The position numbers and the translations under genes were made by a program. A stretch of 64,000 nucleotides of DNA from the NCBI GenBank assembly GCA_002356515.1, contig AP017605.1, forward strand, positions 2,046,001-2,110,000, given 5' to 3'. Shown piece after piece: positions 30,698 to 51,187 of this stretch. Each line of letters opens with the position of its first letter. Within the stretch, counting starts at the first letter, position 1. The notes beneath the pieces are model-generated. The model did no database searches. It was not told where the DNA came from and saw nothing but the letters and a program-made list of their open reading frames with translations. The DNA is from Mesorhizobium loti (GTDB lineage Bacteria > Pseudomonadota > Alphaproteobacteria > Rhizobiales > Rhizobiaceae).

Positions 30698-30860
30698 CGC
30701 GTCCTCCTCACGAATTCCGCCGCGACTATTACTCCCGCCACCGGCGACCTCAAACAAGGAAAGCTAAAAGGGCGTTCAGATAATCGGACTGTGCAATCCG
30801 AGCGCCGCCTGAGCCACGCCAACGCTTTGGGCCATTGCGTTCTGCAATATCACAGAATAT

Positions 30861-30886
30861 GCTTGTTGTACGATCGTTCAACAAGC
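30861..30886. promoter_or_regulatory. palindromic operator before the TMADH-like gene (site 1)
   Basis: Eight-base arms GCTTGTTG and CAACAAGC flank the core TACGATCGTT; 12 of 13 pairs match. It lies 17 bases before the ATG at 30904. The inner 22 bases equal the reverse complement of the site at 46044-46065 except at one base near the centre. The size and symmetry fit a TetR/BetI-type operator. Confidence 0.75.
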
Positions 30887-30903
30887 GTTTTTGCGAAGCC
30901 CCA

Positions 30904-33006
30904 ATGACCTGCAATCCCCGCTACGAAATCCTGTTCGAGCCGATGCGCATCGGACCGGTCACCGCGCCGAACCGCTTCTACCAGGTGCCGCATGCCAGCG
31001 GCATGACCAACGCCCTTCCAAGGGTGCGTGCGGCCTTTCGCGAAGCCAAGGCCGAGGGCGGGTGGGGCGTGATCTGCACCGGCGCCTGTTCGATCGACCC
31101 GAGCTCGGACGACGCGCCGCTGCCTTTCGCCACGCTGTGGGACGACAACGACATCCGCGCCCATGCACTGATGACGGAAGCCGTGCACCGCCATGGCTCG
31201 CTGGCCGGCGTGGAGCTCTGGCACGGCGGCGCGTCCGTCATGAACAGAACAAGCCGGCTGCCGCCGCTGTCGCCCTCGGGAATTCCCTGGATGGCCACGC
31301 ATGTCGGCTTCATGGGCAATCTGCGGCCGAAGACCATGGACAAGGCCGACATAAAAGAGGTGCTGCGATGCCAGGCCGAGGCGGCGCGCAAGGCGCGCAC
31401 CGCCGGCTTCGACATCGTCTACGTCTATGCCGGCATGGGCTATCTCGGCTACGAATTCCTGCTTCCGGAATACAATCATCGCACCGACGAGTACGGCGGA
31501 TTGATCGAGAATCGCGTGCGCTTCGTGCGCGAGATGATCGAGGTCACCAGGGATGCCGTCGGTAAGGATTGCGGCGTCGCCCTGCGCGTCAGCCTCGAAG
31601 AATTGCGCGGCCGGCCCGGCCGCAACCAGCCTTCTGAAGCACACGAACTGATCGAGCTCCTGGCCGACCTGCCCGACCTGTTCGACGTCAAGATGGATTC
31701 CAGCCCGACCGACTGTTCGGCCTCACGCTTCACCGGTGAAGGGAGCCACGAGCCAGTAATCGATTTCGTCAAGTCGCTGACGAAAAAGCCGGTGGTTGGC
31801 GTCGGCCGCTTCACCTCGCCCGACACCATGGTGTCGCAGATCAAGCGCGGCGTGCTCGACTTCATCGGCGGCGCGCGGCCCTCCATCGCCGACCCCTTCC
31901 TGCCGGCCAAGATCCGCGAGGGCCGCGAGGCCGAAATCCGCGAATGCATCGGCTGCAACATCTGCATTTCCAGCTGGCATGACGGCGTGCCGGTGCGCTG
32001 CACCCAGAACCCGACCGCCGGGGAGGAATGGCGGCGCGGCTGGCATCCCGAACGCGTCGAGCGCACCGACAGGCCGGAACGCATCCTGATTGTCGGCGGC
32101 GGGCCGGCCGGGCTCGAATGCGCGTTGACGCTTGGCCGTCGCGGCCATGAGGTGACGCTCGCCGACAGCAGCCGCAGCTTCGGCGGACGGCTGACCTTCG
32201 AGAAGACGCTGCCCGGCCTGTCGGCCTGGAACCGCGTCGTCGAGTACCGCCTCGGGCGCCTGAGCGAAATGGGCAATGTCTTGCTCTATCCCGAGAGTGT
32301 TTTGGGCGTGGACGAGATCATCGATCTCGCCCCGGAGCGCGTGGTGCTGGCGACCGGCGCGCGCTGGACCAACATGCTCTATTCCTCGCTCGAGATTCCG
32401 GTCGGCCGGCTCGACCATCCCCACGTATTCACACCTGACGACATCGCCGCCGGCCGGCTCCCGCAGGGACCGACATTGGTCTTCGATTTCGACAATTACT
32501 ACATGGGCGGCGTGCTGACCGAGTTCCTGGCGGGACAAGGTATTCCGGTCAGCTACGTCACCCCGGCCGGCCAGGCGTCGGCCTGGACGATCATGACCAA
32601 CGAGCTGCCGCTGGTGCATCGCGCGCTGGCACGGCGCAAGGTGCCGGTGACGACGCTGCATTTCCTGAAATCCTTCGATGGCGAGACGGCGACGCTGGCG
32701 CATCTGTTTACCGGCGAGGAGAGCAGCATTGCCTGCCGCTCGGTGCTGATCGTTGGACTGCGCTTGCCACGCAACGAACTGTTCGAAGCGCTGACAGAAC
32801 GGGCGGACGCACTCGCGGCCGCCGGCATCCGCAGCGTCGATCGCATCGGCGACACGCTGGCCCCCGGCGCCATCGCCCACGCCGTGCACAGCGGCCACAA
32901 GCTCGCGCAAGAGATCGGCGCAAAAACCCGCTGGCAGCCCTACCGCCGCGACACGCCGATCGTCGATGCGGTGACGGATTTCGATATGCGCACAGCCGCT
33001 GAATAG
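30904..33006 (+). CDS. trimethylamine-dehydrogenase-like FMN/4Fe-4S/FAD-type oxidoreductase
   Basis: A 700-residue protein of the old-yellow-enzyme plus NAD(P)/FAD-like domain type. The barrel runs to about residue 340, with NRFYQVPH at 23-30 and GVGRFTSPDTM. The iron-sulphur motif CIGCNIC...CTQN keeps all four Cys of TMADH. A Rossmann domain starts at ILIVGGGPAGLE. Compared with Methylophilus TMADH (recalled numbering), the FMN-linking Cys30 is Ala31 and the substrate-bowl Tyr60 is Ala61. So FMN is probably not covalently bound and trimethylamine is probably not the substrate. N-methylproline demethylase StcD is a related alternative. It lies directly before the MttB-family gene. Confidence 0.88.
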   Translation: MTCNPRYEILFEPMRIGPVTAPNRFYQVPHASGMTNALPRVRAAFREAKAEGGWGVICTGACSIDPSSDDAPLPFATLWDDNDIRAHALMTEAVHRHGSLAGVELWHGGASVMNRTSRLPPLSPSGIPWMATHVGFMGNLRPKTMDKADIKEVLRCQAEAARKARTAGFDIVYVYAGMGYLGYEFLLPEYNHRTDEYGGLIENRVRFVREMIEVTRDAVGKDCGVALRVSLEELRGRPGRNQPSEAHELIELLADLPDLFDVKMDSSPTDCSASRFTGEGSHEPVIDFVKSLTKKPVVGVGRFTSPDTMVSQIKRGVLDFIGGARPSIADPFLPAKIREGREAEIRECIGCNICISSWHDGVPVRCTQNPTAGEEWRRGWHPERVERTDRPERILIVGGGPAGLECALTLGRRGHEVTLADSSRSFGGRLTFEKTLPGLSAWNRVVEYRLGRLSEMGNVLLYPESVLGVDEIIDLAPERVVLATGARWTNMLYSSLEIPVGRLDHPHVFTPDDIAAGRLPQGPTLVFDFDNYYMGGVLTEFLAGQGIPVSYVTPAGQASAWTIMTNELPLVHRALARRKVPVTTLHFLKSFDGETATLAHLFTGEESSIACRSVLIVGLRLPRNELFEALTERADALAAAGIRSVDRIGDTLAPGAIAHAVHSGHKLAQEIGAKTRWQPYRRDTPIVDAVTDFDMRTAAE

Positions 33007-33060
33007 GAGCAATTCCAGGAAAAGTGTGAAGCGGTTTTCCCACAGGAATTGCGTCAAACA
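33007..33060. repeat. intergenic stem-loop repeat, copy inside an operon
   Basis: GCAATTCC (33009-33016) pairs with GGAATTGC (33045-33052), and inside it GGAAAA (33018-33023) pairs with TTTTCC (33035-33040), giving a nested hairpin with a GTGTGAAGCGG loop. The same element occurs at 58317-58378 and, shuffled, at 17765-17870. It lies between the flavoprotein stop and the MttB-family start and could set their relative mRNA stability. Confidence 0.8.
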
Positions 33061-33077
33061 GGGAGGTCTAGAAGGCC

Positions 33078-34616
33078 ATGGAACGCATTGCCGCACGTCG
33101 CAGACCCGGCCGCCCGCAGCGCGAGATCGGCGGCATCGAGCAGCGGCCGTGGAAGCAGCTGACGCGACCCTACGCGCCGATCGAGATCCTGTCGGCCGAC
33201 CATGTCCAGACGATCCACGAAATGGGTCTCACCATTCTCGAGGAAATCGGCATGCGCGTGCTGCAGCCGCGGGCGCGGCAGCTCTATCGCTCGGCCGGCT
33301 GCGATGTCGACGAAGGCGAGATGCGGGTGCGCTTCGACCGCGCCATGGTGATGGAGCGCGTCGCCATGGCGCCGTCATCCTTCGAGCTGCGCGCCCGCAA
33401 TCCTGCCAAGAACGTCAAGGTCGGCGGACGGCACTGCATCCTGTCATCGGTCGGCGGCCCGGCCTATGTCATGGACAATGATCGCGGCCGCCGCCCCGGC
33501 ACCTATGCCGAGATGTGCGACTATCTGAAACTGATCCAGTCGTTCAACGTGCTGCACCAGGAAGGCGGCGGCCCGTTCGAGCCGCTCGACCTGCACCAGA
33601 ACACGCGCCATCTCGACCTCTACTATGCCGAGATCACCTTGCTCGACAAGAACTGGCAGCCGCAAACCCTCGGTCAGGGCCGCGCCATCGACGCGCTGGA
33701 AATGGTGGCGATTTCGCTCGGCACCACGCGCGAAAACCTTGCACGGGAGATGCCGGTCTTCACCGGCATCATCAACACCAACTCACCGCTACAGCTCGAC
33801 GAGCCGATGGCCGAAGGTCTGATCGCGCTGGCCGAGCATGGCCAGGTCAATGTCATCACGCCCTTCACGCTGGCCGGCGCGATGAGCCCGGTGACGCTTG
33901 CCGGCGCGCTGTCGCAGCAGCATGCCGAGGCGCTGGCCGGCATCGTCCTGACCCAGATCGTGCGCCCCGGCGTGCCGGTCATGTATGGCGGCTTCACCTC
34001 CAATGTCGACATGAAGACCGGCGCGCCGGCCTTCGGCACGCCCGAATACACGCAGGCCGCGCAGATCACCGGCCAACTCTGCCGGCTGATCGGCGTGCCG
34101 TTCCGCTCCAGCAATGTCACCGCCGCCAATTCGGTCGACGCGCAGGCCGCCTATGAGAGCGCGATGTCGTTGTGGGGCTGCCTGATGGGCGGCGCCAACC
34201 TGGTGCTGCATGCCGCCGGCTGGCTCGGCGGTGGGCTGACCGCGTCGTTCGAGAAACTGGTCATCGACGCCGAGATGCTGCAGATGATGTCGGCCTATTT
34301 CGACCCGCCCGTGGTCGACATCGACACGCTGGCGCTGGAAGCGGTGCGCGAGGTCGGCCCCGCCGGGCATTTCTTCGGCGCGGCACACACCATGCAGCGC
34401 TACGAGCGCGCCTTCTATTCGCCGCTGGTGTCGAACTGGGACAATTACGACACCTGGATCGAGCGCGGCCAGGTCACGGCGCGCGAGCGCGCCAATGTCG
34501 TGTGGAAACGCATGGTCGCCGAATACGAGCAGCCGCCGATCGATCCCGGCATAGACGAGGCGCTGCGCGACTATATGGAGCGGCGCAAGCGCGAGGGCGG
34601 TTGTCCGTTGAATTGA
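33078..34616 (+). CDS. MttB-family trimethylamine/quaternary-amine methyltransferase (non-pyrrolysine)
   Basis: A 512-residue TIM-barrel protein of the MttB family. Recognisable parts are LSADHVQTIHEMGLTILEEIG at the start, HEEGG-like HQEGGGPFEPLDLHQNTRHL, TPFTLAGAMSPVTLAGAL, the GVPVMYGGFTSNVDMKTGAP segment and ESAMSLWGCLMGGANLVLHAAGWL. There is no in-frame TAG, so it lacks the pyrrolysine of archaeal trimethylamine enzymes. Characterised non-pyrrolysine members (MtgB and relatives) transfer methyl groups from glycine betaine, proline betaine or carnitine to a corrinoid protein. No corrinoid protein gene is in the window. It follows the TMADH-like gene and is probably cotranscribed. Confidence 0.92.
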   Translation: MERIAARRRPGRPQREIGGIEQRPWKQLTRPYAPIEILSADHVQTIHEMGLTILEEIGMRVLQPRARQLYRSAGCDVDEGEMRVRFDRAMVMERVAMAPSSFELRARNPAKNVKVGGRHCILSSVGGPAYVMDNDRGRRPGTYAEMCDYLKLIQSFNVLHQEGGGPFEPLDLHQNTRHLDLYYAEITLLDKNWQPQTLGQGRAIDALEMVAISLGTTRENLAREMPVFTGIINTNSPLQLDEPMAEGLIALAEHGQVNVITPFTLAGAMSPVTLAGALSQQHAEALAGIVLTQIVRPGVPVMYGGFTSNVDMKTGAPAFGTPEYTQAAQITGQLCRLIGVPFRSSNVTAANSVDAQAAYESAMSLWGCLMGGANLVLHAAGWLGGGLTASFEKLVIDAEMLQMMSAYFDPPVVDIDTLALEAVREVGPAGHFFGAAHTMQRYERAFYSPLVSNWDNYDTWIERGQVTARERANVVWKRMVAEYEQPPIDPGIDEALRDYMERRKREGGCPLN

Positions 34617-34685
34617 GGGGCAACCTTCGAGGGAGGAACCGGGCAGGACAGGCCGTGGCAGGCCTCCTGGCCTCGTCGCCAGGCG

Positions 34686-35309
34686 CTACAGGCGCGATCG
34701 CTCGGCGGCGGCCGCTTCATCCGACATCGCAATGCGCATTCCAGGCCTGACGATGGCGGGATCGTAGCTCTTGCGGGCGAAGACTTCCCGCACCAGCGGC
34801 GCGAAGAAATCCAGCGGCCGTGTGGGATAGTCCGGATCGAAGCTCGACTGGTCCCATTTCTCGCAGAACTCGGCGCAGTCGTCGAAATAGGCGCTGTTCC
34901 TGAAGGCATCCCGCTTGTGCGGGTTCGCACCGACATGCTCGCCATAGTAGATCAGCTGGAAATCGCCATGCTTTTCCACCACCCAGGCGCATTGCTCGCG
35001 CACGAACGGACGCAGGATGGCGGCCGCGTATTCGTCATGATTGTAGGGCGCATAAATATCGCCGATGTCATGCAGCAGCGCCGACACCACCCAGTCGATA
35101 TCGGCGCCGGCATTCCAGGCGCGCGTCGCGGCCTGCAGCGAATGGCCGAGCCGCGTCACCTTGTAGCCCGATAGAGATTTTTCGAGTTCGACCATAGCCG
35201 CCAGAAGCCGGTCGGCCGTGCCGGTGGCGTATTCGGTCTCATGTTCGGTGAGGAAGGCATAGTCCTCGCGGTCGCCATCCTTCATCTGGGTGAACTTCAC
35301 GGTTTCCAT
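34686..35309 (-). CDS. HD-domain protein, possible PhnZ/TmpB-type diiron oxygenase
   Basis: A 207-residue HD-domain protein. Candidate metal ligands are His56 (GHSLQA), His80-Asp81 (ALLHDIGD), His91, His114 (VEKHGDF) and a later Asp in the WDQSSFDPDYP region. The spacing H-24-HD-n-H-23-H resembles PhnZ and TmpB, HD proteins that use a mixed-valence diiron site to oxidise phosphonates, including a trimethylammonio-phosphonate in the TmpB case. An ordinary phosphohydrolase is the alternative. It is the last gene of the leftward unit with the Rieske and amidohydrolase genes; GGAG precedes the ATG. Confidence 0.75.
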   Translation of the reverse strand: METVKFTQMKDGDREDYAFLTEHETEYATGTADRLLAAMVELEKSLSGYKVTRLGHSLQAATRAWNAGADIDWVVSALLHDIGDIYAPYNHDEYAAAILRPFVREQCAWVVEKHGDFQLIYYGEHVGANPHKRDAFRNSAYFDDCAEFCEKWDQSSFDPDYPTRPLDFFAPLVREVFARKSYDPAIVRPGMRIAMSDEAAAAERSRL

Positions 35310-35342
35310 CGTCCGGACTCCAAAATTTGCGGCACGCGGCGA

Positions 35343-35720
35343 TCAGCGGCGCATTTCGAGATAGATGTCGTCGCCGTCGACATGAACGGGAAAGGTGCGC
35401 GCCCTGAGTTTCTCGTCGACAAGGCATTTGCCGGAGCGGATGTCGAACTCCCATCCATGCCAGGCGCAGCGGATGATCTCTCCGGCGCGCTCATAGACGA
35501 ATTCCGCCTTGTCCGTTTGCCGGTTGGTGCCCGACACCGGCCCCTCGCAGAGATGGCCTGCGCGATGCGGGCAGATGTTGAGCAGCGCGGCGTAGCCGTC
35601 CTCGAGCTGGAATATGCCGACGCGGATGCGGCCGATGGTGACGATCGTGGGCTTGCCGACGGCGACCTGGGCGGCCTTGCAGGCAAAGGTCAGCGCCGGA
35701 GCGGTTGCGGCGGCGCTCAT
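35343..35720 (-). CDS. Rieske [2Fe-2S] ferredoxin-like protein
   Basis: A 125-residue single-domain Rieske protein. The cluster ligands are Cys50 and His52 in CPHRAGHLC and Cys85 and His88 in CAWHGWEFD. The length and lack of a catalytic domain fit an electron-transfer ferredoxin for an oxygenase. Its start overlaps the amidohydrolase stop (TGATG). The HD-domain protein encoded 33 bases downstream is a candidate partner; no reductase gene is adjacent. Confidence 0.9.
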   Translation of the reverse strand: MSAAATAPALTFACKAAQVAVGKPTIVTIGRIRVGIFQLEDGYAALLNICPHRAGHLCEGPVSGTNRQTDKAEFVYERAGEIIRCAWHGWEFDIRSGKCLVDEKLRARTFPVHVDGDDIYLEMRR

Positions 35721-36805
35721 CAGGCGACCCTCGCGGCCGCGGCCGGAGCCTCGATGCGCTTGTAGACCTCCAGCGCATTCAGCCCCATCACCTTGTCGCG
35801 CCAGGCCGGTGGGATGTGCAGATTCGTCGGCGCGTCGAAATCCCAGTGCGGATAGTCGGAGGCGAAAAGCAGCGTGTTCTGGCCGTCCATGTGCTCCAGC
35901 GTTTCCCACAGATGCCTGACGTTCTGGGGCTGCTCCAACGGCTGGGTGCTGAAGCGGATGTTGCGGCGGCAATATTCCGACGGCAGCATCTTCAGCCACG
36001 GCGTCTCCTTGCGCAGCGCCTTGAAATTGGCATCGAGCCGCCACATCAGCGAAGGCACCCACGACACGCCGCACTCGATGACGACGAAATAGAGGTCGGG
36101 ATATTTCTCGAACACGCCGTTGGAGATCATGCTGACCACATGGGTCATCGCCGGCTGGGCGAGCAAGGCGTGCGTTTCCCAATAATAGGCAGTCGGGCCG
36201 CTGGCGATCGCGTTGTGGTTGACGCCGCCTTGGCCGCCGAAATGAATGGCGAAGGGCAGCCCGACCTCGGCGCAGGCTTCGTAGATCGGATGGTAGAAGG
36301 GATCGCCATAGGGGCGCTGCGAGCCGTGGCTGGCCAGCACCTGGACGATGTCCTTGTGGCCGCCGAGACGCCGGATCTCGGCTGCGGCGCCATGGGGGTC
36401 GGTCGGCGAAATGATGATCGATCCCTTGAAGCGGTTGTCCTTCGGCAGCCACCAGTCGATCATGTAATCATTGTAGGCTTTCACCAGTGCGTTGGCATAG
36501 TGATAGTTGGCCAGGGTCGAGGCTTCCAAAGGCTCGTCGGCGGTGAGGATCGCCACATCGATGTCATAGAGATCGAGGTGCTTCTCCTTCATGATCAGGT
36601 AATTGTCATCCTCGGTTTCCGGACGGATGTCGTGCCGCGAGAACCCCTCCGGGTGCAGCCATGGACGGTGGCCGTGCGGAAAGCTTCCCCTCGGCCCGGG
36701 CTTCTCGCCGCGCACCAGGAAATCGCGCCAGTAGGGTTCGAGATACGGCAGCAGCACCTCGGCGCTCGACCAGTAATTGTGAACGTCGGTGTCGACGATG
36801 AACAT
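35720..36805 (-). CDS. amidohydrolase-2 family metal-dependent hydrolase
   Basis: A 361-residue protein of the amidohydrolase_2 (decarboxylase/hydrolase) family. VDTDVHNYW at the start supplies the DxH metal site, GLPFAIHFGGQGG the central His and LLFASDYPHWDFDAP the late metal Asp. Relatives decarboxylate aromatic acids or hydrolyse C-C and C-N bonds. The ATG at 36805 gives the usual start. It is the first gene of a three-gene leftward operon and is divergent from a LysR gene, a layout that usually means LysR control. Confidence 0.9.
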   Translation of the reverse strand: MFIVDTDVHNYWSSAEVLLPYLEPYWRDFLVRGEKPGPRGSFPHGHRPWLHPEGFSRHDIRPETEDDNYLIMKEKHLDLYDIDVAILTADEPLEASTLANYHYANALVKAYNDYMIDWWLPKDNRFKGSIIISPTDPHGAAAEIRRLGGHKDIVQVLASHGSQRPYGDPFYHPIYEACAEVGLPFAIHFGGQGGVNHNAIASGPTAYYWETHALLAQPAMTHVVSMISNGVFEKYPDLYFVVIECGVSWVPSLMWRLDANFKALRKETPWLKMLPSEYCRRNIRFSTQPLEQPQNVRHLWETLEHMDGQNTLLFASDYPHWDFDAPTNLHIPPAWRDKVMGLNALEVYKRIEAPAAAARVA

Positions 36806-36972
36806 GGATGTCTTGCCTGCCGCTGGGTGGGATGAGGAGTTGCGGCAACCCTGCGCTTCCAAGGCAGGGCCGGCAACGCAGCCAGCGGCGGGATGTTGAT
36901 CGAAGAATCCGATTACCCGTTGTCGGACCGGGCCGAAAAGCGTTAGCGATTGCAGGGAATTCCTGGCGCTGG

Positions 36973-37827
36973 ATGGCCGAGATGCAGATCGAACTCTTGG
37001 ACACGTTCCTCGACCTTATCGAAACCCGCAACTTCAACAGGACGGCGGAGCGCCTTGGCATCACCCAGTCGACCGTTTCGAGCCGCATCCGCACGCTCGA
37101 GACATTGCTCGACAAGCAGCTCTTCATCCGCGGCAAGAGCGGCACGGAACCGACCGTCGCCGGCCTGAGGTTCGAGGAGCATGCGCGCGCGGTCAGGCTG
37201 CGCTGGCTCGACGCCCGCCGCGAAATCCAGACGGTCGGCAAGTTCGACCGGCTGATCCGCATCGGCATCCAGTTCGAGCTCTACGAACGCGTGCTGGGAG
37301 GATGGCTGGAATGGGTGCGGGCGACGATGCCCAAACTGGCGATCTATGTCGAGATCGACTACTCCAACCAGATGATCCTCGATCTCACCACCGGCAGCCT
37401 CGATCTGGCGGTGCTCTATTCGCCGCAGCACCTGCCGGACATGCATTACGAGCAGATCGCCGAGGAGAATTTCGTCATGGTGTCGACGCGCGGCGTTGCC
37501 TTCGGCGCGGTCACGCCGGCCGACTATATCCGGGCCAACTATTCGGCCTTCTTCAACCGCGCCCACAGGCAGATGCTGCCGGAGCTTGAAAACAGCCCGG
37601 TCTCGACCGGAAATGGCGGCGCTGTCGCCTATCTCTTGCGAAGTCGGGGCGGGACCGCTTTCGTCACCGAGACGGTGGCGACCAGGTTGCGGCAGGAGGG
37701 CGTGGCGGAATTCGTCGCCGATGCGCCGAAGATTTCACATCCCATCTATTCGGCCGTCCATGTCAGGCACCATCATTCCCACACCCATATTCGCCTGCTC
37801 AAGGCGCTCAAGCAGATGACCGCATAG
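36973..37827 (+). CDS. LysR-family transcriptional regulator
   Basis: A 284-residue LysR protein. The winged helix-turn-helix is FNRTAERLGITQSTVSSRIR near residues 20-39, then TLETLLDKQLFIRGK, and an effector domain with the segments LAIYVEIDYSN and FVMVSTRGVAFG. The 167-base divergent gap to the amidohydrolase gene makes that operon the likely target. I start it at the ATG at 36973; the ATG three codons later is equally possible and no good ribosome binding site decides between them. Confidence 0.92.
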   Translation: MAEMQIELLDTFLDLIETRNFNRTAERLGITQSTVSSRIRTLETLLDKQLFIRGKSGTEPTVAGLRFEEHARAVRLRWLDARREIQTVGKFDRLIRIGIQFELYERVLGGWLEWVRATMPKLAIYVEIDYSNQMILDLTTGSLDLAVLYSPQHLPDMHYEQIAEENFVMVSTRGVAFGAVTPADYIRANYSAFFNRAHRQMLPELENSPVSTGNGGAVAYLLRSRGGTAFVTETVATRLRQEGVAEFVADAPKISHPIYSAVHVRHHHSHTHIRLLKALKQMTA

Positions 37828-37894
37828 AGGCTGTCCAGGACGCAAGGAGGGCTGAGGCAGCCTCGGCAAGGTGCGAAGCAGCGCTGCCTTGCAT

Positions 37895-38575
37895 TCAACC
37901 GTCCCGCAGCGGCCCCACCTGCGCTTCGAGCATCTCAAACCCCGCCGCCTCCGCCGCCTGCGGCGTCACCACGCTTTCATCGAGGCACCATTCGAGCCAG
38001 AGCCCGTCGACCAAAGCGATGAAATTGCGCGCCAGCGACGGAGCGTCGACTTGCCTGCCGCGTGGCACCGCGACCGCCGCGATGTCCTCGGCGAGTTCCG
38101 CCCGATAGGCATCGTAGAGTTCGCGGTGCGCTTCCTTGAGGCGCGGGTTGACGGCGATCTCGCCCCACAGCGACAGCCAGATCAAAAGGTTCTCGCGGCT
38201 GAAATATTCGGGCGAGAAATTGGAATGCACCAAAGCGGCCAGCGATGCCTCCGGCGGCCAGTCGGATGCCTCGGCACGGCGGCGCTTGGCTTCGGCGATC
38301 TGGTTGTTGACGCTGGCGTAGAGCGAGGATTTGTAGACCTCGACCAGCAATCCATCGAGGCTTTCGAAATGATGGTTTATGAGGCCGCGCGAAACACCGG
38401 CCTCCTTGCAGATACGGTCGATGGTGAAGGCGCCGATGCCGCCGACCGACAGGCAGCGTGTCGCCGCCTCGATCAGCATGGAACGGCGCACGTCGGCCTG
38501 TTCGCGGCTGAAGCGCGGCGGAGCCTTTTTCGCGCCGCGCTTCCTTTTTGCATCTTCTGCCTGGGCTTCCGTCAT
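37895..38575 (-). CDS. TetR-family regulator, BetI-like
   Basis: A 226-residue regulator. The N-terminal basic stretch precedes a TetR helix-turn-helix (FTIDRICKEAGVSRGLINHH). The ligand domain has a FSRENLLIWLSLWGEIAVNP segment and LVDGLWLEWCLDE, the pattern I know from BetI and RutR-like proteins; BetI senses choline. It lies 46 bases after the SBP gene at the end of the leftward transporter operon, so it would be made with that operon. The two palindromes at 30861-30886 and 46036-46073 are its best candidate sites, which would make the operon self-controlled. Confidence 0.88.
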   Translation of the reverse strand: MTEAQAEDAKRKRGAKKAPPRFSREQADVRRSMLIEAATRCLSVGGIGAFTIDRICKEAGVSRGLINHHFESLDGLLVEVYKSSLYASVNNQIAEAKRRRAEASDWPPEASLAALVHSNFSPEYFSRENLLIWLSLWGEIAVNPRLKEAHRELYDAYRAELAEDIAAVAVPRGRQVDAPSLARNFIALVDGLWLEWCLDESVVTPQAAEAAGFEMLEAQVGPLRDG

Positions 38576-38621
38576 GCAACCCAGCTAATCGATTATGCCC
38601 TTCCTGTCCATGAAAGCGCGT

Positions 38622-40184
38622 TCAGGCCTTCTTCTTGAACAGCACCGGATTGGGATGGCCATCGGGATAGATGACCGGGTCGAATGCGGTTTTGTGGATA
38701 GCGACCAGCGGCTGATGGCAGATGAAGACGAAACCGCCGGACTGCTCCATCAGATCCTCCATGCGGTTGGACAAGACGATGCGCTTGGCCTCGTCGCTTT
38801 CCGCCACCAGCTGCTGATAGCTGGTCTCGAATTCCGCACTGTCGAAGCCCGACCAATTGTAGGCGCCGATCTGGTCGGGGCGGAACCAGACCAGGTTTTC
38901 CGACGGGTCGATGCCGCCGGCAAAATCCATCAGCGCCAGGTCGATGTTCTTGTAGCCATCGCCCTGCGTCTTGTCGCCGACGCCCCAGAAGGCGGCCTCG
39001 TCATAGGGCTGGATCTCGACCTTGATGCCGGCCTGCTCAAGGCTGGCCTGGATGATCTGCGCGGTCGCGGTGCGGATGGAATCGTTCATCACCGTCAGCG
39101 TCAGCGACAGATCGCTGACGCCGGCTTCAGTGAGTAGCGCGGCCGACTTCTCATAGTCGGGCGCCGCGATCAGATTGGAGGCGCGCGCGAATTTGGTGCC
39201 GGGCTGGACGACGCCGGTGGAGCGCTTGGTCAGGTCGTCATAGACGCCGGTGAGGATCTGCCCGACATCGACGCCATACTGCACGGCTTGCCGCACCTTC
39301 AAATCCTTGAGCCGCGGGCTCAACTGGTTGATGGTCAGCCAGACATAACGGGTCGACTGCGCCTCGATCAGGTTTGTGTCCGCCGGCGGCTTCTCCTTGA
39401 CGGCCTTGGTCGCCGAAATGGCGATCTTGGTGTAGTCGAAGGCATCGGCCTCGTAGGCAAGCTGGGCCGCCTGGTCGTCGGTGACGATATAGATCTCGAC
39501 CTTCGAAAAGTCCGGCTTCGGTCCCGGCCAATCCGGATTGGCCGTCAGCGTCACCTTCTGCTTCTGCTGCCAGTCCGAGAAGAGATAGGGCCCGCAGGTC
39601 GCCGGCGGCTGCGTGGTGAATTTGCCGCCCGCCTTCTCGGTGCCGGCGCGGCTGATGATGTGGCCGCCATAGTAAGGCAGGCTGGTGACGAAGATCGGCT
39701 GGTAAGGTTCCTTCAGATGGATGATGCCGGATCTGGCGTCGACGACCTCGACACGATCGAGTTTCTCGAACTGATAGGCCCAGGGCGATGCCAGCGCCTT
39801 ATCGGCAATCCGCTCGAAGGAGAATTTCACGTCATCTGCCGTGACCGCGCCGAAACCACCAGACCATTTCAGCCCGTCGATCAAGGTGAAGGCGATGGTT
39901 TTCGGGTCTTTCTGCTCCAGCTTTTCCGCGCCCCACAGCGACCAGGGCGAGCCTTTGCGGATGTCGCCGAAATGGTTGAGCGAGACATAGATGCCGCGCA
40001 TCATGACATCCTCGATGCCACCATTCATGAAGGCGGGATCGAGGCATTGCAGATCGCCCTCCATGCGGATGCGCAGCGTGTCGCCGGCGGCCGACCAGGC
40101 AAAGCTCGGCTTCATCGCCAGGCCGGCGCTCAGCACGCCGGCCGCTTTCAGGAATGCACGTCTATCCATGGACCATTCTGTCAT
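38622..40184 (-). CDS. peptide/opine-type ABC substrate-binding protein, Tat-exported
   Basis: A 520-residue family-5 binding protein. DRRAFLKAAG near the start is a twin-arginine signal followed by a short hydrophobic stretch ending ASAAG-like. LRIRMEGDLQCLDPAF, VTADDVKFSFERI and PYYGGHIISRAG follow the DppA/OppA layout, with NPDWPGPKPDFSKVEI later on. AAGGGGAAA precedes the ATG at 40184; the ATG at 40169 is possible. Family-5 proteins bind peptides, opines, nickel or glycosides; this one sits with a BetI-like regulator, so a quaternary-amine derivative is plausible. One base separates it from the upstream ATPase gene. Confidence 0.93.
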   Translation of the reverse strand: MTEWSMDRRAFLKAAGVLSAGLAMKPSFAWSAAGDTLRIRMEGDLQCLDPAFMNGGIEDVMMRGIYVSLNHFGDIRKGSPWSLWGAEKLEQKDPKTIAFTLIDGLKWSGGFGAVTADDVKFSFERIADKALASPWAYQFEKLDRVEVVDARSGIIHLKEPYQPIFVTSLPYYGGHIISRAGTEKAGGKFTTQPPATCGPYLFSDWQQKQKVTLTANPDWPGPKPDFSKVEIYIVTDDQAAQLAYEADAFDYTKIAISATKAVKEKPPADTNLIEAQSTRYVWLTINQLSPRLKDLKVRQAVQYGVDVGQILTGVYDDLTKRSTGVVQPGTKFARASNLIAAPDYEKSAALLTEAGVSDLSLTLTVMNDSIRTATAQIIQASLEQAGIKVEIQPYDEAAFWGVGDKTQGDGYKNIDLALMDFAGGIDPSENLVWFRPDQIGAYNWSGFDSAEFETSYQQLVAESDEAKRIVLSNRMEDLMEQSGGFVFICHQPLVAIHKTAFDPVIYPDGHPNPVLFKKKA

Positions 40185-40185
40185 C

Positions 40186-41214
40186 TCAGTTTCCCCTTTG
40201 GTTTGCGGAAGCGCGTGAGAAGGCTTCCCGTTCTTGCCCGCCTGTCTCCAGCGGGAAATGGCAGCGCACCATCCGGTCGGCGCCCATCGGCCGATAGGCC
40301 GGCGCCTCGGTCCTGCAACGCTCGCGCGCGATCGGGCAGCGCGTGTGGAACTCGCAGCCCGAGGGCCGCCGGAACACGCTCGGAATCTCGCCGGTGACGG
40401 CCGGGGTCTGGCTGCGCCGTCGCGGATCGGGGATCGGCTCGGACTGGATGAGCGTCGCGGTGTAGGGATGCATCGGCGCCGAAAACACATCCTGCGTTGG
40501 ACCCGTTTCGACCAGCCGGCCGAGATACATGATGGCCAGCCGGTCGCTGACATGGCGGATCATGGCCAGGTTGTGGGTGACGATCATGGCGGCGAAACCC
40601 AGTTCGCGCTTCAGCTCGCCGATGAGGTTGAGCACATCGCCTTGCACCGAGACATCGAGGCCGGCTGTCGGCTCGTCGGCGAGCAGCAGATGCGGCTTCA
40701 TCGCCAAAGCGCGAGCCACGCCGACGCGGCGCGCCTGGCCGCCCGACAGCTCATGCGGAAAGCGGTCGACGAAGGAAGCGGGCAATCCGACCAGCGCCAG
40801 CAGCGCCTTGGCCGCGGCGCGGCGGTCCGGCATCGGCACGCCCTGAATGATCTGTGGCTCGGTGAGCAGCGTGCCGATGCGCAGGCGCGGGCTGAGCGAG
40901 GCGACCGGATCCTGGAACATCATCGCCGAACGCCGGCGCATGGCGCGGAAATCGGCCGGCGTCGCCACATCCCTGCCCTCGAAGACGATGCGGCCGGCGG
41001 CGGCCCGGATGAGCCCGAGAATGGTGCGCGCCAGCGTCGTCTTGCCGGAGCCGGATTCGCCGACCAGCCCGAGCGTCTCGCCCGGCATCAGCGACAACGT
41101 CACGCCGTCGATGACATTGAAGCCCGGCAGCGGGAACGGATTGATCAGCCGGCTGAGCAAGCCGCCGCGCACGAAGCTCACGGAGAGGTCTTCCACGGCG
41201 AGCAGCGGGTTCAT
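40186..41214 (-). CDS. peptide-type ABC ATP-binding protein (DppF-like)
   Basis: A 342-residue ATPase with Walker A GESGSGKTT, signature LSGGQARRVGVARAL, Walker B LLLADEPTAGL and the switch His in MIVTHN. The C-terminal oligopeptide-type extension carries CEFHTRCPIARERC, a Cys pattern found in DppD/F/OppF C-termini that can hold an iron-sulphur cluster in some members. It overlaps the DppD-like stop by four bases. It is the second ATPase of the transporter. Confidence 0.94.
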   Translation of the reverse strand: MNPLLAVEDLSVSFVRGGLLSRLINPFPLPGFNVIDGVTLSLMPGETLGLVGESGSGKTTLARTILGLIRAAAGRIVFEGRDVATPADFRAMRRRSAMMFQDPVASLSPRLRIGTLLTEPQIIQGVPMPDRRAAAKALLALVGLPASFVDRFPHELSGGQARRVGVARALAMKPHLLLADEPTAGLDVSVQGDVLNLIGELKRELGFAAMIVTHNLAMIRHVSDRLAIMYLGRLVETGPTQDVFSAPMHPYTATLIQSEPIPDPRRRSQTPAVTGEIPSVFRRPSGCEFHTRCPIARERCRTEAPAYRPMGADRMVRCHFPLETGGQEREAFSRASANQRGN

Positions 41215-42176
41215 GGCGTCACCGCATGGCAGCGCGCGACATGGGTCGCGGCGAGCCTCACCAGCGGTGGCGCGATGGAAGCGCATGGTGCGAAGGCGCG
41301 GTCGCAGCGCGGGACGTAGACGCATCCCGACGGCTGCAGGGTCAGGCTGGGCAGGGAGCCCGGAATGGTCGGCAGCCTGTCCAGCCGCTCATGGAAACGG
41401 GCGGGGTCGCAGGCGAGCAGCGCTTGCGTGTAGGGATGCCTGGCATCGTGGAAGATCGCATCGACCTCACCGCCCTCGACCACCTCGCCGGCATACATGA
41501 CATAGACCCGGTCGCAGAGTTCGGCGATGACGCCGAGATGGTGCGAAACGACGATGATGATGCCGTTATACTCGCGCCGCAGTTCGCGCAGCAGATGGAT
41601 GATCTGCGCCTCCATGGTGACGTCGAGCGCCGTCGTCGGCTCGTCGGCGATGAGAAGGCCGGGATCGGTCAGCAGCGCGGCGGCAATGGCGACGCGCTGG
41701 CGCATGCCGCCGGACAGTTCGTGCGGGAAGCTGCGCATGCGCCGTTCGGCATCGGCAATGCCGACGCGGCCAAGCATGGCGGCGATGCGCGCCCGCTTCT
41801 GCGCCCGGCCAAGATCCTTGCGGTGGTGCTGGAAATCGACGAGCTGGTCGCCGATGGTCAGCACCGGGTTGAACGCCGTCATCGGATCCTGGCTGACCAG
41901 CGCGATCTCGTCGCCGCGCAGCAGCCGCTGGCGATGCGCGTCGAGCTTGGCCAGGTCGACGCCGTTGTAGCGGATCGACCCGTCGATGCGGGCATTGGCC
42001 GGCAGAAGATTCGCCAGTGCGGTGACCAGCGTGGACTTGCCGCAGCCGCTCTCGCCGACAATGCCGATGACCTCGCCGGGATGCGCCTCGATATCGACAT
42101 GGCGCAGCGCATGCACCGCGCCATGCGGCGTCTCGTAGCGGACGCTGAGATCGCTGGCGGCGAGCGAGCCAGTCAT
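41211..42176 (-). CDS. peptide-type ABC ATP-binding protein (DppD-like)
   Basis: A 321-residue ATPase with Walker A GESGCGKST, the Q-loop VSQDPMTAFNPVL, signature LSGGMRQR, Walker B LLIADEPTTALDV and switch His in IVVSHH. The C-terminus has VYVPRCDRAFAPC, the Cys-containing extension of this subfamily. It overlaps the DppC-like permease by four bases (ATGA) at one end and the DppF-like gene at the other, so all are tightly coupled. Confidence 0.94.
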   Translation of the reverse strand: MTGSLAASDLSVRYETPHGAVHALRHVDIEAHPGEVIGIVGESGCGKSTLVTALANLLPANARIDGSIRYNGVDLAKLDAHRQRLLRGDEIALVSQDPMTAFNPVLTIGDQLVDFQHHRKDLGRAQKRARIAAMLGRVGIADAERRMRSFPHELSGGMRQRVAIAAALLTDPGLLIADEPTTALDVTMEAQIIHLLRELRREYNGIIIVVSHHLGVIAELCDRVYVMYAGEVVEGGEVDAIFHDARHPYTQALLACDPARFHERLDRLPTIPGSLPSLTLQPSGCVYVPRCDRAFAPCASIAPPLVRLAATHVARCHAVTP

Positions 42177-43060
42177 GCCGGCCTCCGCAATTGCAGGCGC
42201 GGATCGAGATAGTCGCGCAGGCCTTCGCCGAGAAAGGTGAAGCCGAGAGTCGCCAACACCAGCGGCAGCCCGCCGAAAATGACCATGAACGGTGCCGAGC
42301 GGATCGAAGTGTAACCGTCATAGAGAATCGAGCCCCAGGACGGCGTCGGCGGACGGACGCCAAGACCGAGGAAACTCAGGCCGGCCTCGACCATGATGAC
42401 CACCGGGATATCCATCGACAGAAGGATGATCAGCGGTCCCACCACATTGGGCAGAAGGTGGATGAAGATGATGCGCGCGGCACTGGCATCGATCAGCCGC
42501 TCGGCGAGGATATAGTCGCTGTTCTTCAGCGCCAGCGTCTGCGCCCGGATCAGCCTGGCGTAGCTTGGAAACGAGGTCGCGGCGATGACGATGATCAGCG
42601 TGCCGGTGCCGGCGCCGAGCACGGTGATGATGGCGAGCGCGAACATGATCATCGGCAGCGAATTCAGGCTGTCGAAGCTCAGCACCAGCATGGCGTCGAG
42701 CCAGCGCGGGCCATAGCCGGCGATCAGGCCGAGCATCAGGCCGATGGCGCCGGCAATGGCCACCGACACCATGGCGATGGTGAGTGCCGTGCGCGCGCCG
42801 TAGATGACGCGCGACAGGAGATCGCGGCCGAGATGATCGGTGCCGAACCAATGCTCCGCCGACGGCGGCTGCAACTTGTGCAGCACGTCGATCTTGACCG
42901 GCGAATAGGGCGCCAGCCACGGCGCGAAAATGGCGGTGACGAGGAAGCTTGTGACCAGGATCAGCGCCACGCAAGTGAACGGATCGGCAAGCAGCGCGCG
43001 CAGCAGCACAAAGCGTTGTCGGCCCGGAACGGACAGCGAGGCATCAGCCACGGAAGACAT
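42173..43060 (-). CDS. peptide-type ABC permease (DppC-like)
   Basis: A 295-residue membrane protein. The N-terminal first helix is followed by HWFGTDHLGRDLLSRVIYGART, the diagnostic DppC/OppC segment. A second motif, LILAERLIDASAARIIFIHLLPN, is the EAA loop. Six membrane segments are expected. It starts within the DppB-like coding end (17-base overlap). Confidence 0.94.
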   Translation of the reverse strand: MSSVADASLSVPGRQRFVLLRALLADPFTCVALILVTSFLVTAIFAPWLAPYSPVKIDVLHKLQPPSAEHWFGTDHLGRDLLSRVIYGARTALTIAMVSVAIAGAIGLMLGLIAGYGPRWLDAMLVLSFDSLNSLPMIMFALAIITVLGAGTGTLIIVIAATSFPSYARLIRAQTLALKNSDYILAERLIDASAARIIFIHLLPNVVGPLIILLSMDIPVVIMVEAGLSFLGLGVRPPTPSWGSILYDGYTSIRSAPFMVIFGGLPLVLATLGFTFLGEGLRDYLDPRLQLRRPA

Positions 43061-43994
43061 CGCGCACCCTCGGATCGAGCCGTGCGATCAACAGATCGGC
43101 GGCAATGGTGATGGAGACATAGATTGCGGTCATGATCAGCACCGTGCCCATGACGACGGGATAATTGCGGGTGTTGACGGCGTCGGTGATCAGCTTGCCG
43201 ATGCCGGGCCGGGCAAACACCGCCTCGACGAAGACGGCGCTGGACAGGATGCTGCCGAGGCCGACGGCGACCAGCGAGATGGTCGGGATGATGGCGATGC
43301 GCAGCGCGTATTTGGAGACGATCTTCCACTCCGGCAAACCAAACGAGCGCGCGGTGCGGATGTGCGGCTCGCCCATCACCTCCATCATCGAGGCGCGCAC
43401 CATGCGGGCGATATAGCCGATCCAGCCCAGCGCGATCGCTGCCGCGGGCATGACCAGCGCCTTGGCCTGGCTGGCGAAGTCACCAGCCTCGCCGGCGCCG
43501 ATGGCCGGCAGCCAGCGCAGCGTCACGGCGAACAGCAGCAGCGAATAGATGGCGACGACAAAGGACGGCACGGCGATGACGCCGACCGAGAGCACGCCGA
43601 TGACGGCATCGGCCGCCGTGCCGCGCCGCATCACCGACAGGCAACCCAAGGGAACGCCGATGAGGAGCGCGACGGCCAGCGCGGTCAGGCCGAGGATCAG
43701 CGTGTTGGGCAGCGCTTCAAGGACCAGCATCGAGACGGGCCGGTTCGACCAGACGTCATAGCCGAGATTGCCGGTCAGCGCGTTGCGGAAGAATTCGATG
43801 ATCTGCCACCAGACCGGCTGGTCGAGCCCCATGCGCTCGATCAGCAGCCGCTTCAGTTCCGGCGTGGCGCGCGGACCAAGCGCCACGGTCGCGGGGTCAC
43901 CCGGCACCAGGAAGACGGCCGCATACATCGCAATCATGACGAGGACGAGGATCAGGAGGCCGAGACCGATGCGCTTCACTGCATATGCGAGCAT
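43044..43994 (-). CDS. peptide-type ABC permease (DppB-like)
   Basis: A 316-residue membrane protein. It starts with MLAYAVKRIGLGLLILVLVM, the usual first helix of DppB/OppB, and contains LGLDQPVWWQIIEFFRNALTG and the EAA-like loop VRASMMEVMGEPHIRTARSFG. GAGGAGGGAGG before the ATG is a strong ribosome binding site. It follows the hydrolase gene after 18 bases. Confidence 0.94.
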   Translation of the reverse strand: MLAYAVKRIGLGLLILVLVMIAMYAAVFLVPGDPATVALGPRATPELKRLLIERMGLDQPVWWQIIEFFRNALTGNLGYDVWSNRPVSMLVLEALPNTLILGLTALAVALLIGVPLGCLSVMRRGTAADAVIGVLSVGVIAVPSFVVAIYSLLLFAVTLRWLPAIGAGEAGDFASQAKALVMPAAAIALGWIGYIARMVRASMMEVMGEPHIRTARSFGLPEWKIVSKYALRIAIIPTISLVAVGLGSILSSAVFVEAVFARPGIGKLITDAVNTRNYPVVMGTVLIMTAIYVSITIAADLLIARLDPRVRDVFRG

Positions 43995-44012
43995 GGCCTC
44001 CCTCCTCTTTCC

Positions 44013-46022
44013 TCAGGCGAAATCGCGCCTGATGCGCTGACTTGCCGAGGCGCTGTGGACGAGCGTGCCCCGTTCTCGCGCCTCGAGCCGCCAACTCAGG
44101 TTGAAATGGGTCTCGTCTGCCGTCAGTTCGGTGACTGCGGTCGCTTCGGTGTCGGCGTCGCCACTGGCGATCGCCCAGCGATATTCGGTGACGAGTTTCG
44201 CCGACAACGGATCGTCGGCACGGATGCTCATCGTGTCGCAGTTGGCCGAGGACACGGTGATGCCGCGATCGTCAAAGCGTCGGCGTCCATGGTCGGAGGT
44301 CAGCGCGATGGTCTGCACGCCCGAGCCGACATCCTCGGTGACGATGCGGCGGTCGAAGCCCTCTTCCAGCGTCGTGGTCGGAACCGGCGGCGCGGTTTCA
44401 GCCGGCTCGAAACGGACATCGCGATCGCGTTCCGACGGCGGCCGCACCGGCAGCATCACCGTGCTGTCACCGGCCACGACCGATAGCGTCGCCAATTTGG
44501 GTTGCGGCCACAGGATCGGCCAGTGCTGGTTGGCCAGCGCCAGCCGGATGCGATGGCCCTTGGGCACGGTGCGGGCGAAATCGTTGAGCTTCAGCCGCAC
44601 GCGAAACGGCGTTCCGACCGGACACGGGGTGGGATGCTCATGGCTGTCGCGGTGGCTGAGATTGAGCACGCCATAAGTCATAAGCGCCGAAGTGCCGTCG
44701 GGATAGACATCGCAGAGTCGGGCGGCGAGATTGACATGCGGCTGGTCGACGCTGATCAGCAGATCAAGCTCGGGCGCGCCGAGCAAGGTCAGGTCATCGT
44801 CGAGCGGCAACGTGTCGAAGCCCAGCGCCATCCCGTCCTCGCGGCGCTGGTCGATGGGCATGTCAGGACAGGAGCCTCCATAGCCGCCCCAGCGGCCGCA
44901 ATCACGGCCGGCGGTGGCTGGCGAGCGGACGGACAGCGTGGCACCCGGTACTGCCTGACCACTGAGACCGGTGGCGTTCAGATGCAAGGCGCGGCGCTCG
45001 ATGCGCGGCGATGGCCACTGGTCCTCGGCGGCCCAGTCGCCGGCATGGTCAGGCAGATAATAAGGCTGCGGGCGTTCCTCGCCGGTGATCCAGACGCGGT
45101 AGAGCGGCTCATCCATGATGCCGGTGTCTTCGCCGACGAGCCAGTGGCGCCACCAGCGCAGCGCCTCCTGCAGATAGCCGATCAGCGGCCCCGGCGCGCC
45201 GCGGCAGGGATAGGCATGCGACCACGGCCCGACGATGCCGAGTTTTGGACCCGGCAGATGTTCGAGCAGGCGCGGCACGAAGTTGGAATAGCTGTCCTCC
45301 CAGCCGCAGACAGCCATCACGGCGCATTCGATTGCGGAATGATCCTCGCAAACGGAGCCTTGTCGCCAGTAATCGTCGCGGCGCTGATGCGCGAGCCAGA
45401 CCTCCGACAGCGAACGTGTCGCTCCGAGCCGGTTCATCCACATGGCGCGCCAGGCATCGCCGACGATCTGTGGGTCGGGCGCCATCGCCTTCTTCACCAG
45501 CATGAAGTTCGACCACATCTCCTGCTCGGTCAGCAGCGCGCCGCCCATATAGTGGATGTCGTCGGCGTAGCGGTCGTCGGTGGCGCAGTTTGTGATGATG
45601 GCTTTCAGGGCCGGTGGCCGCCGCGCCGCGACCTGCAGCGCGTTGAAGCCGCCCCAGGAAATGCCGGTCATGCCGACATTGCCGTTGCACCAGGGCTGGG
45701 CCGCCAGATGAGCGATGATCTCGCAGGCGTCTTCCTGTTCGCGCGGCAGATATTCGTCGGCGAGATCGCCGTGGGAATCGCCCGAACCCCTGATGTCGAT
45801 GCGCGCGCAGGCAATGCCGTGACCGGCAAGCCAGGGGTGGATGTCGATGTCGCGCGCCACCGTGCCGTCGCGGCGGCGGTAAGGCACCATCTCGACGACG
45901 ACCGGCACCTTGCCCTCTGTGCGCGGACGCCAAAGCGTCGCGGCAATGCGGGTGCCGTCGGCCAGCGCGATCCACAGCGGATCCACGGTTTCGACAGCAA
46001 AGGGAAACTCGGTTCGTACCAC
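44013..46022 (-). CDS. CocE/NonD-type alpha/beta hydrolase
   Basis: A protein of about 669 residues resembling CocE esterases and X-prolyl dipeptidyl peptidases. WIALADGTRIAATLWRP opens the catalytic domain, GMTGISWGGFNA holds the nucleophile Ser, and GPWSHAYP the catalytic His; the last third is the jelly-roll domain of this family. No signal peptide is visible, so it is probably cytosolic and acts after import. The GTG at 46022 is the best start, 14 bases inside the palindrome at 46036-46073; no strong ribosome binding site is seen. As first gene of the transporter operon it likely cleaves an imported ester or amide. Confidence 0.87.
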   Translation of the reverse strand: MVRTEFPFAVETVDPLWIALADGTRIAATLWRPRTEGKVPVVVEMVPYRRRDGTVARDIDIHPWLAGHGIACARIDIRGSGDSHGDLADEYLPREQEDACEIIAHLAAQPWCNGNVGMTGISWGGFNALQVAARRPPALKAIITNCATDDRYADDIHYMGGALLTEQEMWSNFMLVKKAMAPDPQIVGDAWRAMWMNRLGATRSLSEVWLAHQRRDDYWRQGSVCEDHSAIECAVMAVCGWEDSYSNFVPRLLEHLPGPKLGIVGPWSHAYPCRGAPGPLIGYLQEALRWWRHWLVGEDTGIMDEPLYRVWITGEERPQPYYLPDHAGDWAAEDQWPSPRIERRALHLNATGLSGQAVPGATLSVRSPATAGRDCGRWGGYGGSCPDMPIDQRREDGMALGFDTLPLDDDLTLLGAPELDLLISVDQPHVNLAARLCDVYPDGTSALMTYGVLNLSHRDSHEHPTPCPVGTPFRVRLKLNDFARTVPKGHRIRLALANQHWPILWPQPKLATLSVVAGDSTVMLPVRPPSERDRDVRFEPAETAPPVPTTTLEEGFDRRIVTEDVGSGVQTIALTSDHGRRRFDDRGITVSSANCDTMSIRADDPLSAKLVTEYRWAIASGDADTEATAVTELTADETHFNLSWRLEARERGTLVHSASASQRIRRDFA

Positions 46023-46361
46023 GGCAGGTACCCGTAAATGCTCTTGTTGAACGTTCGTACAACAAGAGCATTTGCAGCGCAATCCCGCTTCACCTTTTTG
46101 ATGTCGAAAGCGAACCGTTCTTCGACGGCCATGCGGCGGCGTTAGACTTTCAGGTCGGGGAGAAGCCGGTCCATCATCAACCCCAGGACACCCAGCGGGC
46201 ATGGCTTCGCCATCGAACCGCATCCACGAACGGTCCGAAGGCTCTGCAGAAATCGGATAGCCGGACCTACTTTTTTCATCTTGCAAATTTTGTTTCTTGG
46301 CATCTGCTGTTACTTGGCGTCGCATGCCAGCGGCAGCTGTGCCTTCAATCAGGAACTTCCG
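46023..46361. other. 339-base divergent gap between hydrolase and aminotransferase genes
   Basis: It holds the long palindrome at 46036-46073 next to the hydrolase start. The remainder carries no ORF that I trust. An AT-richer patch at 46268-46300 (T-run, then TTGCAAATTTTGTT) before the aminotransferase could be its promoter, but no standard spacing is met. Confidence 0.5.
46036..46073. promoter_or_regulatory. long palindromic operator before the hydrolase-transporter operon (site 2)
   Basis: Fourteen-base perfect arms, AAATGCTCTTGTTG and CAACAAGAGCATTT, flank the core AACGTTCGTA. The inner 22 bases are the reverse complement of those in the site at 30861-30886 apart from one base. It ends 13 bases before the GTG start of the hydrolase gene, so bound repressor would block transcription start or ribosome access. 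Confidence 0.78.
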
Positions 46362-48290: not shown

Positions 48291-48291
48291 C

Positions 48292-51186: not shown

Positions 51187-51187
51187 C

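Follow-up and report, generated by a model that had tools for sequence, protein, structure and literature searches.

Two short palindromes at one locus of Mesorhizobium loti raise the question of whether a single repressor controls two separate gene units. The window, as we call the whole stretch of DNA that was analysed, comprises 64,000 nucleotides of contig AP017605.1 (positions 2,046,001 to 2,110,000 of the forward strand) from a genome of 8.45 Mb. Palindrome A precedes unit A, which encodes an iron-sulphur flavoprotein resembling trimethylamine dehydrogenase (TMADH) and a methyltransferase of the MttB superfamily. Palindrome B precedes unit B, which consists of seven minus-strand genes for a CocE-type hydrolase, two permeases, two ATPases and a binding protein of a peptide-type ATP-binding cassette (ABC) importer and, in the last position, a TetR-family regulator. 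The original prediction read this arrangement as a closed, self-limited quaternary-amine circuit under a BetI-like repressor. As judged from comparative sequence analysis, the regulon is very probably real, and the TetR protein of the window is likely its repressor. A literature search of open-access sources found no paper on this gene set or on the operator.

Two candidate operators at conserved promoter-like elements

Both palindromes are present where they had been predicted, and their common core of 22 base pairs (bp) differs at a single base when B is read as the reverse complement: the core of site A is TTGTTGTACGATCGTTCAACAA (30863-30884), and that of site B, in reverse complement, is TTGTTGTACGAACGTTCAACAA (46044-46065). 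Each stands directly before the first gene of its unit, as had also been proposed; site A ends 19 bp upstream of the ATG at 30904, and site B ends 21 bp upstream of the GTG at 46022. A scan of the window with the pattern TTGTTGWACGWWCGTWCAACAA, which was used for all site searches, returned exactly two matches within 3 mismatches, a number reached by 0 of 100 shuffled sequences (shuffle mean 0.00). At the same threshold the whole genome contains only sites A and B, so the core is not scattered over unrelated places, and the reversed-pattern control gave 0 matches.

The sites were then aligned with their counterparts in other Mesorhizobium genomes (39 copies of site A and 35 of site B, window included). 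The 22-mers share 95.6% (A) and 98.7% (B) identity between copies, whereas the DNA 33-60 bp upstream shares only 30-36%. The distance from operator to start codon is 10-20 bp at A and 19-23 bp at B, where the start codon is GTG in 33 copies, ATG in one and TTG in one. The one-base difference between A and B is itself conserved, since the centre of the core is GATC in 37 of the 39 A copies (GATT in the other 2) and GAAC in 34 of the 35 B copies.

Elements resembling the -35 and -10 hexamers lie at a nearly fixed distance from both operators and are conserved across copies. At site A, all 39 copies carry TTGCGT, TTGCGC or TTGTGT, a 17-bp spacer and a TAnnnT hexamer, at the end of which the operator begins. 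At site B, all 35 copies carry TTGC.., a 17-bp spacer and TACGAA (34) or TACGGT (1); this -10 element sits within the operator, and its conservation is therefore not independent evidence. Because both operators overlap conserved promoter elements, steric repression would fit. Three site A copies (L033, L048, L059) have the core in the opposite orientation at the same place, with no change in the promoter-like elements, as would suit a symmetric binding protein.

Outside the core, the arms (30851-30896 and 46034-46075 in the window) vary among relatives and often stay palindromic, as in GCAAATGCTC..GAGCATTTGC versus TTAAATCGCC..GGCGATTTAA. Several arm columns exceed column shuffles, and the arms are non-palindromic in many copies; the signal is not read as structure because related sequences can exceed shuffles without it. 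Either selection or template-switch correction may account for the palindromic arm changes.

Distribution within the genus Mesorhizobium

Among 146 Mesorhizobium genomes, sites within 2 mismatches (the threshold of all genus-wide counts unless stated otherwise) were found in 39, two sites in 35 of them and one site in 4. They are conserved beside orthologous genes: site A precedes the TMADH-like gene in its 39 copies and site B the CocE-type hydrolase gene in 35. An ortholog of the window TetR protein (at least 81% identity; next best match 36%) is encoded in 40 of the 146 genomes, namely the 39 site-bearing ones (at least 84%) and G072, a metagenome-assembled genome (MAG) whose TetR protein is 81% identical and which carries two 3-mismatch sites at the equivalent two promoters. 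Sites thus accompany the ortholog in 39 of 40 genomes and occur in 0 of the 106 genomes without it. A Fisher test of 39/1 versus 0/106 gives p ~1e-34, which overstates the evidence because the genomes are kin and the sites, TetR gene and targets are linked. When 3 mismatches are allowed, 51 of 146 genomes match, comprising the 40 TetR-bearing genomes and 11 others.

The number of operators tracks the number of units. The four one-site genomes (G016, G133, G136 and G138) have the TetR gene, MttB, the TMADH-like gene and site A; they have neither a hydrolase/transporter unit at the locus nor site B, and genome-wide they encode only CocE paralogues of 44-45% identity. An ortholog of CocE is found in all 35 two-site genomes, with only residues 198-670 aligning in G134. 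In 35 of the 146 genomes the operators mark a candidate pathway that comprises two demethylation enzymes together with an importer and a hydrolase.

Two smaller observations belong here. At locus L064 (4015-6087), the CocE protein encoded beside site B shows no alignment before residue 198, and the start of the gene may be broken. A 3-mismatch palindrome, TTATTGAATGATCATTCAACAA, recurs in five TetR-less genomes (G011, G046, G076, G088 and G098) and is perhaps the operator of another regulator.

Sites beyond the genus

A scan of named genomes for relatives of the TetR protein gave 57 loci, of which 31 are more distant (L125-L155; L128 is a contig of G072, and at L149 and L153 the compared DNA begins inside a Rieske gene, with the promoters outside). 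A site within 3 mismatches was found at 11 of these 31. The locus of M. soli (L125) and locus L129 keep the transporter-side site with 2 and 3 mismatches, respectively. In Labrys, where the TetR protein is 67-68% identical, one site precedes a family-3 binding protein gene followed by the TetR gene, and another precedes a TMADH-like gene whose product is 51-52% identical. Four gammaproteobacterial MAGs encode TetR proteins of only 33-36% identity and carry sites with 0-3 mismatches; at L150 the site precedes a Rieske oxygenase gene, and at L151, L152 and L154 it precedes GcvT/amine-oxidase genes.

A scan by pattern only, with no protein query and at 2 mismatches, covered overlapping samples of the class (385 genomes) and the phylum (398), and matched 8 genomes outside the genus. 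In three of them (G775, G1103 and G1094) the site lies between a Rieske oxygenase gene and a divergent gene for a protein with TetR_N and TetR_C_6 domains, 32-36% identical to the window TetR, while in G869 and G565 it lies 27 and 26 bp upstream of a Rieske oxygenase gene. Among NCBIfam models, these five Rieske proteins and that of L150 match the glycine betaine monooxygenase GbcA best, but their 139-165 bits stay below its cut-off (670), which makes them relatives of GbcA and not members. The case suggests that a regulator-operator pair can persist while the chemistry beneath it changes.

The proposed repressor and the enzymes of the probable regulon

The TetR gene closes the seven-gene unit, as predicted (Table 1). 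Its product scores 45.8 bits for TetR_N (cut-off 24) and 77.4 bits for TetR_C_6 (cut-off 27), which places it among proteins with a BetI-type C-terminal domain. The predicted structure is all-helical (mean predicted local distance difference test score, pLDDT, 87), with 3e7q as the best solved match. The top structural matches include a TetR protein of Saccharomonospora viridis with choline, benzamidine and a ligand whose name is incomplete ('N,N-dimethylmet'). Across 35 homologues, three tryptophans (W133, W137 and W193) do not vary. An N-methylated amine as the effector would fit these structural relatives and the invariant tryptophans, which falls short of proof.

Table 1. Coordinates of the features of the locus within the window.
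Feature	Position	Strand	Remarks
Inferred promoter A	30835-30863	+	-35 TTGCGT (30835-30840), 17-bp spacer, -10 TATGCT (30858-30863)
Operator A	30861-30886		26-bp palindrome, 22-bp core 30863-30884; overlaps, at the TMADH-like/MttB promoter, the end of the -10 element and the region where transcription is expected to start; 39 copies compared
TMADH/histamine-dehydrogenase-like iron-sulphur flavoprotein, 700 amino acids (aa)	30904-33006	+	Oxidored_FMN and Pyr_redox_2
MttB-superfamily methyltransferase, 512 aa	33078-34616	+	PF06253, E=7e-194, residues 7-508; open frame, no internal stop
Variable insertion: HD-domain protein, Rieske protein, amidohydrolase, LysR	34686-37827		Not a core member
BetI-like TetR protein, proposed repressor	37895-38575	-	TetR_C_6 (PF13977); last gene of unit B
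Family-5 peptide-type solute-binding protein	38622-40184	-	PF00496; ATG at 40184 or 40169
Peptide-type ABC transporter ATPase, OppF/DppF-like	40186-41214	-	Start read from sequence
Peptide-type ABC transporter ATPase, OppD-like	41211-42176	-	
Peptide-type ABC permease	42173-43060	-	OppC_N and BPD_transp_1
Peptide-type ABC permease, OppB/DppB-like	43044-43994	-	
CocE/NonD-type hydrolase (S15 family)	44013-46022	-	GTG start; member of TIGR00976, 204.6 bits (cut-off 66.3)
Operator B	46036-46073		38-bp palindrome, 22-bp core 46044-46065; upstream of unit B; 35 copies compared
Inferred promoter B	46054-46082	-	-35 TTGCGC (46082-46077), 17-bp spacer, -10 TACGAA (46059-46054) inside operator B

To our knowledge, no substrate has been assigned to many of the MttB-family and TMADH-like enzymes found in soil bacteria and in bacteria associated with plants. 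The flavoprotein of unit A has the domain layout of the TMADH/histamine dehydrogenase family and keeps its iron-sulphur spacing C-x2-C-x2-C-x11-C. Its best relatives in the PDB include the histamine dehydrogenases 3k30 and 6de6, with TMADH ranking after them. In TMADH, Cys30 binds flavin mononucleotide (FMN) covalently. The flavoprotein is unlikely to be a true TMADH because alanine aligns with this FMN-binding cysteine; methionine aligns with His172 of TMADH. A variant flavoprotein of 52-53% identity is encoded at site A in G058, G103 and G137, where the operator itself has no more than 1 mismatch, and substrate details may vary for this reason.

The second enzyme of unit A belongs to the MttB superfamily by its full-length match, and among PDB entries it is related to 4yyc and to 9yce, a glycine betaine methyltransferase. 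Genes for trimethylamine methyltransferase carry an in-frame TAG codon for pyrrolysine. The window gene has no in-frame stop, and its product scores 280.6 bits for the trimethylamine methyltransferase family TIGR02369 against a cut-off of 525. In unit B, the hydrolase has cocaine esterase (CocE/NonD) as its PDB relative; it scores above the TIGR00976 cut-off and its Ser, Asp and His motifs align. It differs in that it reaches about 99 bits over 670 aa in the comparison with that enzyme.

In the account that we propose, the TetR protein binds both operators and represses both units until an N-methylated amine derepresses them, and we hold this account, taken as a whole, to be quite probable. 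A dimer or a pair of dimers would bind at A and at B, covering both promoters and blocking transcription of the flavoprotein and methyltransferase genes on one side and of the hydrolase, the importer and the repressor itself on the other. A small amine bearing N-methyl groups would release the repressor; it would arise from the imported compound and would most likely be a quaternary or a tertiary amine. What the importer takes up is probably a conjugate with an ester or amide bond, which the hydrolase would split. Of the methyl groups on the quaternary nitrogen, MttB would then transfer one to the only MtgC-like corrinoid protein, whose gene lies elsewhere in the genome, and a second would be taken off oxidatively by the flavoprotein.

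Objections and alternative explanations

A number of observations weigh against this account. The BetI-like label holds for the TetR_C_6 domain and no further: the protein scores 93.6 bits for the BetI equivalog TIGR03384, far from the cut-off of 201.3, and both operators precede genes other than those for choline-to-betaine conversion, which BetI controls via the betI box. We therefore regard the window protein, from its sequence, as not BetI. In addition, TetR structures related to it also hold benzamidine, so the bound choline may be a crystallisation artefact. As to distribution, the co-occurrence of sites, TetR gene and targets in the genus is partly the inheritance of one locus through linkage. 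Eleven of the 106 TetR-less genomes have one 3-mismatch match each, and a further match with 3 mismatches occurs in G133 and in G138, outside their 20-kb loci. Of the 31 distant TetR loci, 20 have no site within 3 mismatches, and the site upstream of the TMADH-like gene departs from the pattern at 5 positions in M. soli and at L129. Three of the 8 matches outside the genus lack the described context, lying in coding frames (G635, G1213) or before a gamma-glutamyltranspeptidase gene (G582). No MttB was seen in the MAG locus L059, and neither MttB nor CocE in the Labrys loci; the complete set of genes is thus no requirement. Finally, in the four one-site genomes no operator within 2 mismatches precedes the repressor gene, which means that autoregulation is not universal. 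Of the closed circuit, then, the joint membership of both sites and the TetR gene in one regulon is supported by the uniqueness and conservation of the sites, by their number, which follows that of the units, and by the similar operators beside distant TetR genes, while the loop is not fully supported.

The system appears to resemble a BetI-type local regulon in its working, with a non-BetI protein and a different operator. It shares with BetI regulons the TetR_C_6 domain, a local repressor of amine catabolism and transport genes and an operator predicted at the promoter. It departs from them in its targets, which are not bet genes, in its two operators with conserved distinct centres and in the operator sequence, which is unlike the betI1 palindrome of Ruegeria pomeroyi, ATTGACG*CGTCAAT, as given in the consulted part of PMC12442346.

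The alternative that survives best, and which we consider unlikely, accepts the regulon and changes its substrate to something other than a quaternary amine, for which N-methylated peptides, histamine-like amines and N-methyl alkaloids, secondary or tertiary, would be examples; MttB would then act on another substrate. The histamine dehydrogenases as closest named solved relatives, the alanine at the Cys30 position, the peptide-type importer, the likeness of the hydrolase to cocaine esterase and the variant flavoproteins at site A in three genomes all speak for it. It is opposed by the GbcA-closest Rieske genes behind an equivalent operator type elsewhere and by the MttB-family demethylases with reported substrates, which use quaternary amines or trimethylamine as far as the consulted parts of two reports extend (PMC12478193; PMC8604678). 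The quaternary-amine theme of the original prediction is accordingly left as a plausible label, resting by analogy on the choline-bound structural relative and on GbcA as the nearest named family of the Rieske targets; it is not fully supported, with alanine at the Cys30 position and no corrinoid gene beside MttB.

It is very improbable that a different regulator, another TetR protein or the LysR protein, binds the sites while the linked TetR protein is a bystander. There were 52 TetR_N matches among 150 genome candidates scored, and a LysR gene lies between the units in the window genome, but the block with the LysR gene is absent from 34 of 39 fetched loci, most of which have both sites. The genus sites, moreover, occur only where the ortholog of the window TetR is found, and similar sites recur beside distant TetR_C_6 proteins. 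A slightly smaller chance still is given to the palindromes being RNA hairpins in the 5' leader, acting in attenuation or translation control, and not protein operators. The arms outside the core co-vary in several relatives and remain palindromic, which speaks for a hairpin; yet the core is nearly invariant where an RNA stem would permit compensatory changes, and many copies have non-palindromic arms. Furthermore, the start sites expected from the promoter elements fall inside the palindrome, so the left arm would be untranscribed. Chance or a mobile repeat is next to negligible: mobile elements can spread short palindromes, but shuffled sequences never reach two sites, 35 genomes have exactly two at orthologous promoters, and copies are 96-99% identical.

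A possible corrinoid partner of MttB

In the proposed scheme, the MttB step of unit A would use a corrinoid protein. No such protein is encoded beside the window MttB, as a genome-wide search for B12-binding_2 domains showed, which sets the locus apart from a corrinoid methyltransferase operon. The genome encodes 9 MttB-family proteins (genes on C1 and C3) and a single B12-binding_2 protein, which is MtgC-like. Its gene, at C1:1041158 and about 1 Mb from the window MttB gene, adjoins that of an MttB paralogue with which the window protein shares 39% identity, and genes resembling those for homocysteine methyltransferase and methylenetetrahydrofolate reductase (MTHFR) lie near it (C1:1.03-1.05 Mb).

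According to the consulted part of PMC12478193, R. pomeroyi needs the corrinoid protein MtgC to demethylate glycine betaine as well as to make methionine, and the genes are colocalised in S. meliloti. The M. loti system is like the MtgBCDE/split methionine synthase system of R. pomeroyi in that an aerobic alphaproteobacterium combines PF06253 proteins with a single corrinoid protein; it is unlike it in that the window MttB is linked to a TMADH-like gene, a hydrolase and a peptide-type importer instead of a corrinoid gene. By analogy, given the single B12-binding_2 protein and the dual role of MtgC, the window MttB may well work with the shared MtgC-like protein. One methyl hub possibly serves all nine methyltransferases.

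A broader idea, which we put forward tentatively and would not back at even odds, is that a BetI-like, non-BetI TetR subfamily has kept the operator TTGTTGTACG-WW-CGTTCAACAA across alpha- and gammaproteobacteria. Its members would sense related N-methylated metabolites, while the enzymes below were swapped among three unrelated N-demethylation chemistries (corrinoid/flavin, with MttB and a TMADH-like protein; Rieske oxygenase with amine oxidase; GcvT-type with amine oxidases). The Mesorhizobium regulon would feed the methyl groups of imported conjugated betaines into one shared corrinoid hub that also serves methionine synthesis. An effector screen on one small repressor could point to the substrate of the pathway.

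Neighbouring genes and rejected candidates

Neighbouring genes were compared in 39 loci from 38 other site-bearing genomes (one genome gave two); the loci were fetched as 20-kb cuts, so these counts are lower bounds. The block with the HD-domain, Rieske, amidohydrolase and LysR genes lies between MttB and the TetR gene in the window and at 4 of the 39 loci (L032, L036, L051 and L067), and outside the unit at L061. It was rejected as a member of the regulon, being present in only 5 of 39 loci. Its HD-domain protein matches PhnZ/TmpB-type models weakly.

Three further candidates were rejected. An aldehyde dehydrogenase gene (29201-30697) has a copy of at least 97% identity in at least 9 of the 39 loci, and an aminotransferase gene (46362-47576) is found in at least 5 (L032, L034, L036, L040 and L057). 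No operator precedes the sarcosine-oxidase genes (47616-52693), which adjoin the regulon on the minus strand and comprise SoxA- and SoxB-like genes, both below the NCBIfam subfamily cut-offs, and a GcvT-like gene. These genes would fit a last demethylation step, and other soxA-family genes lie near the locus in several relatives (for example, L063 and L068).

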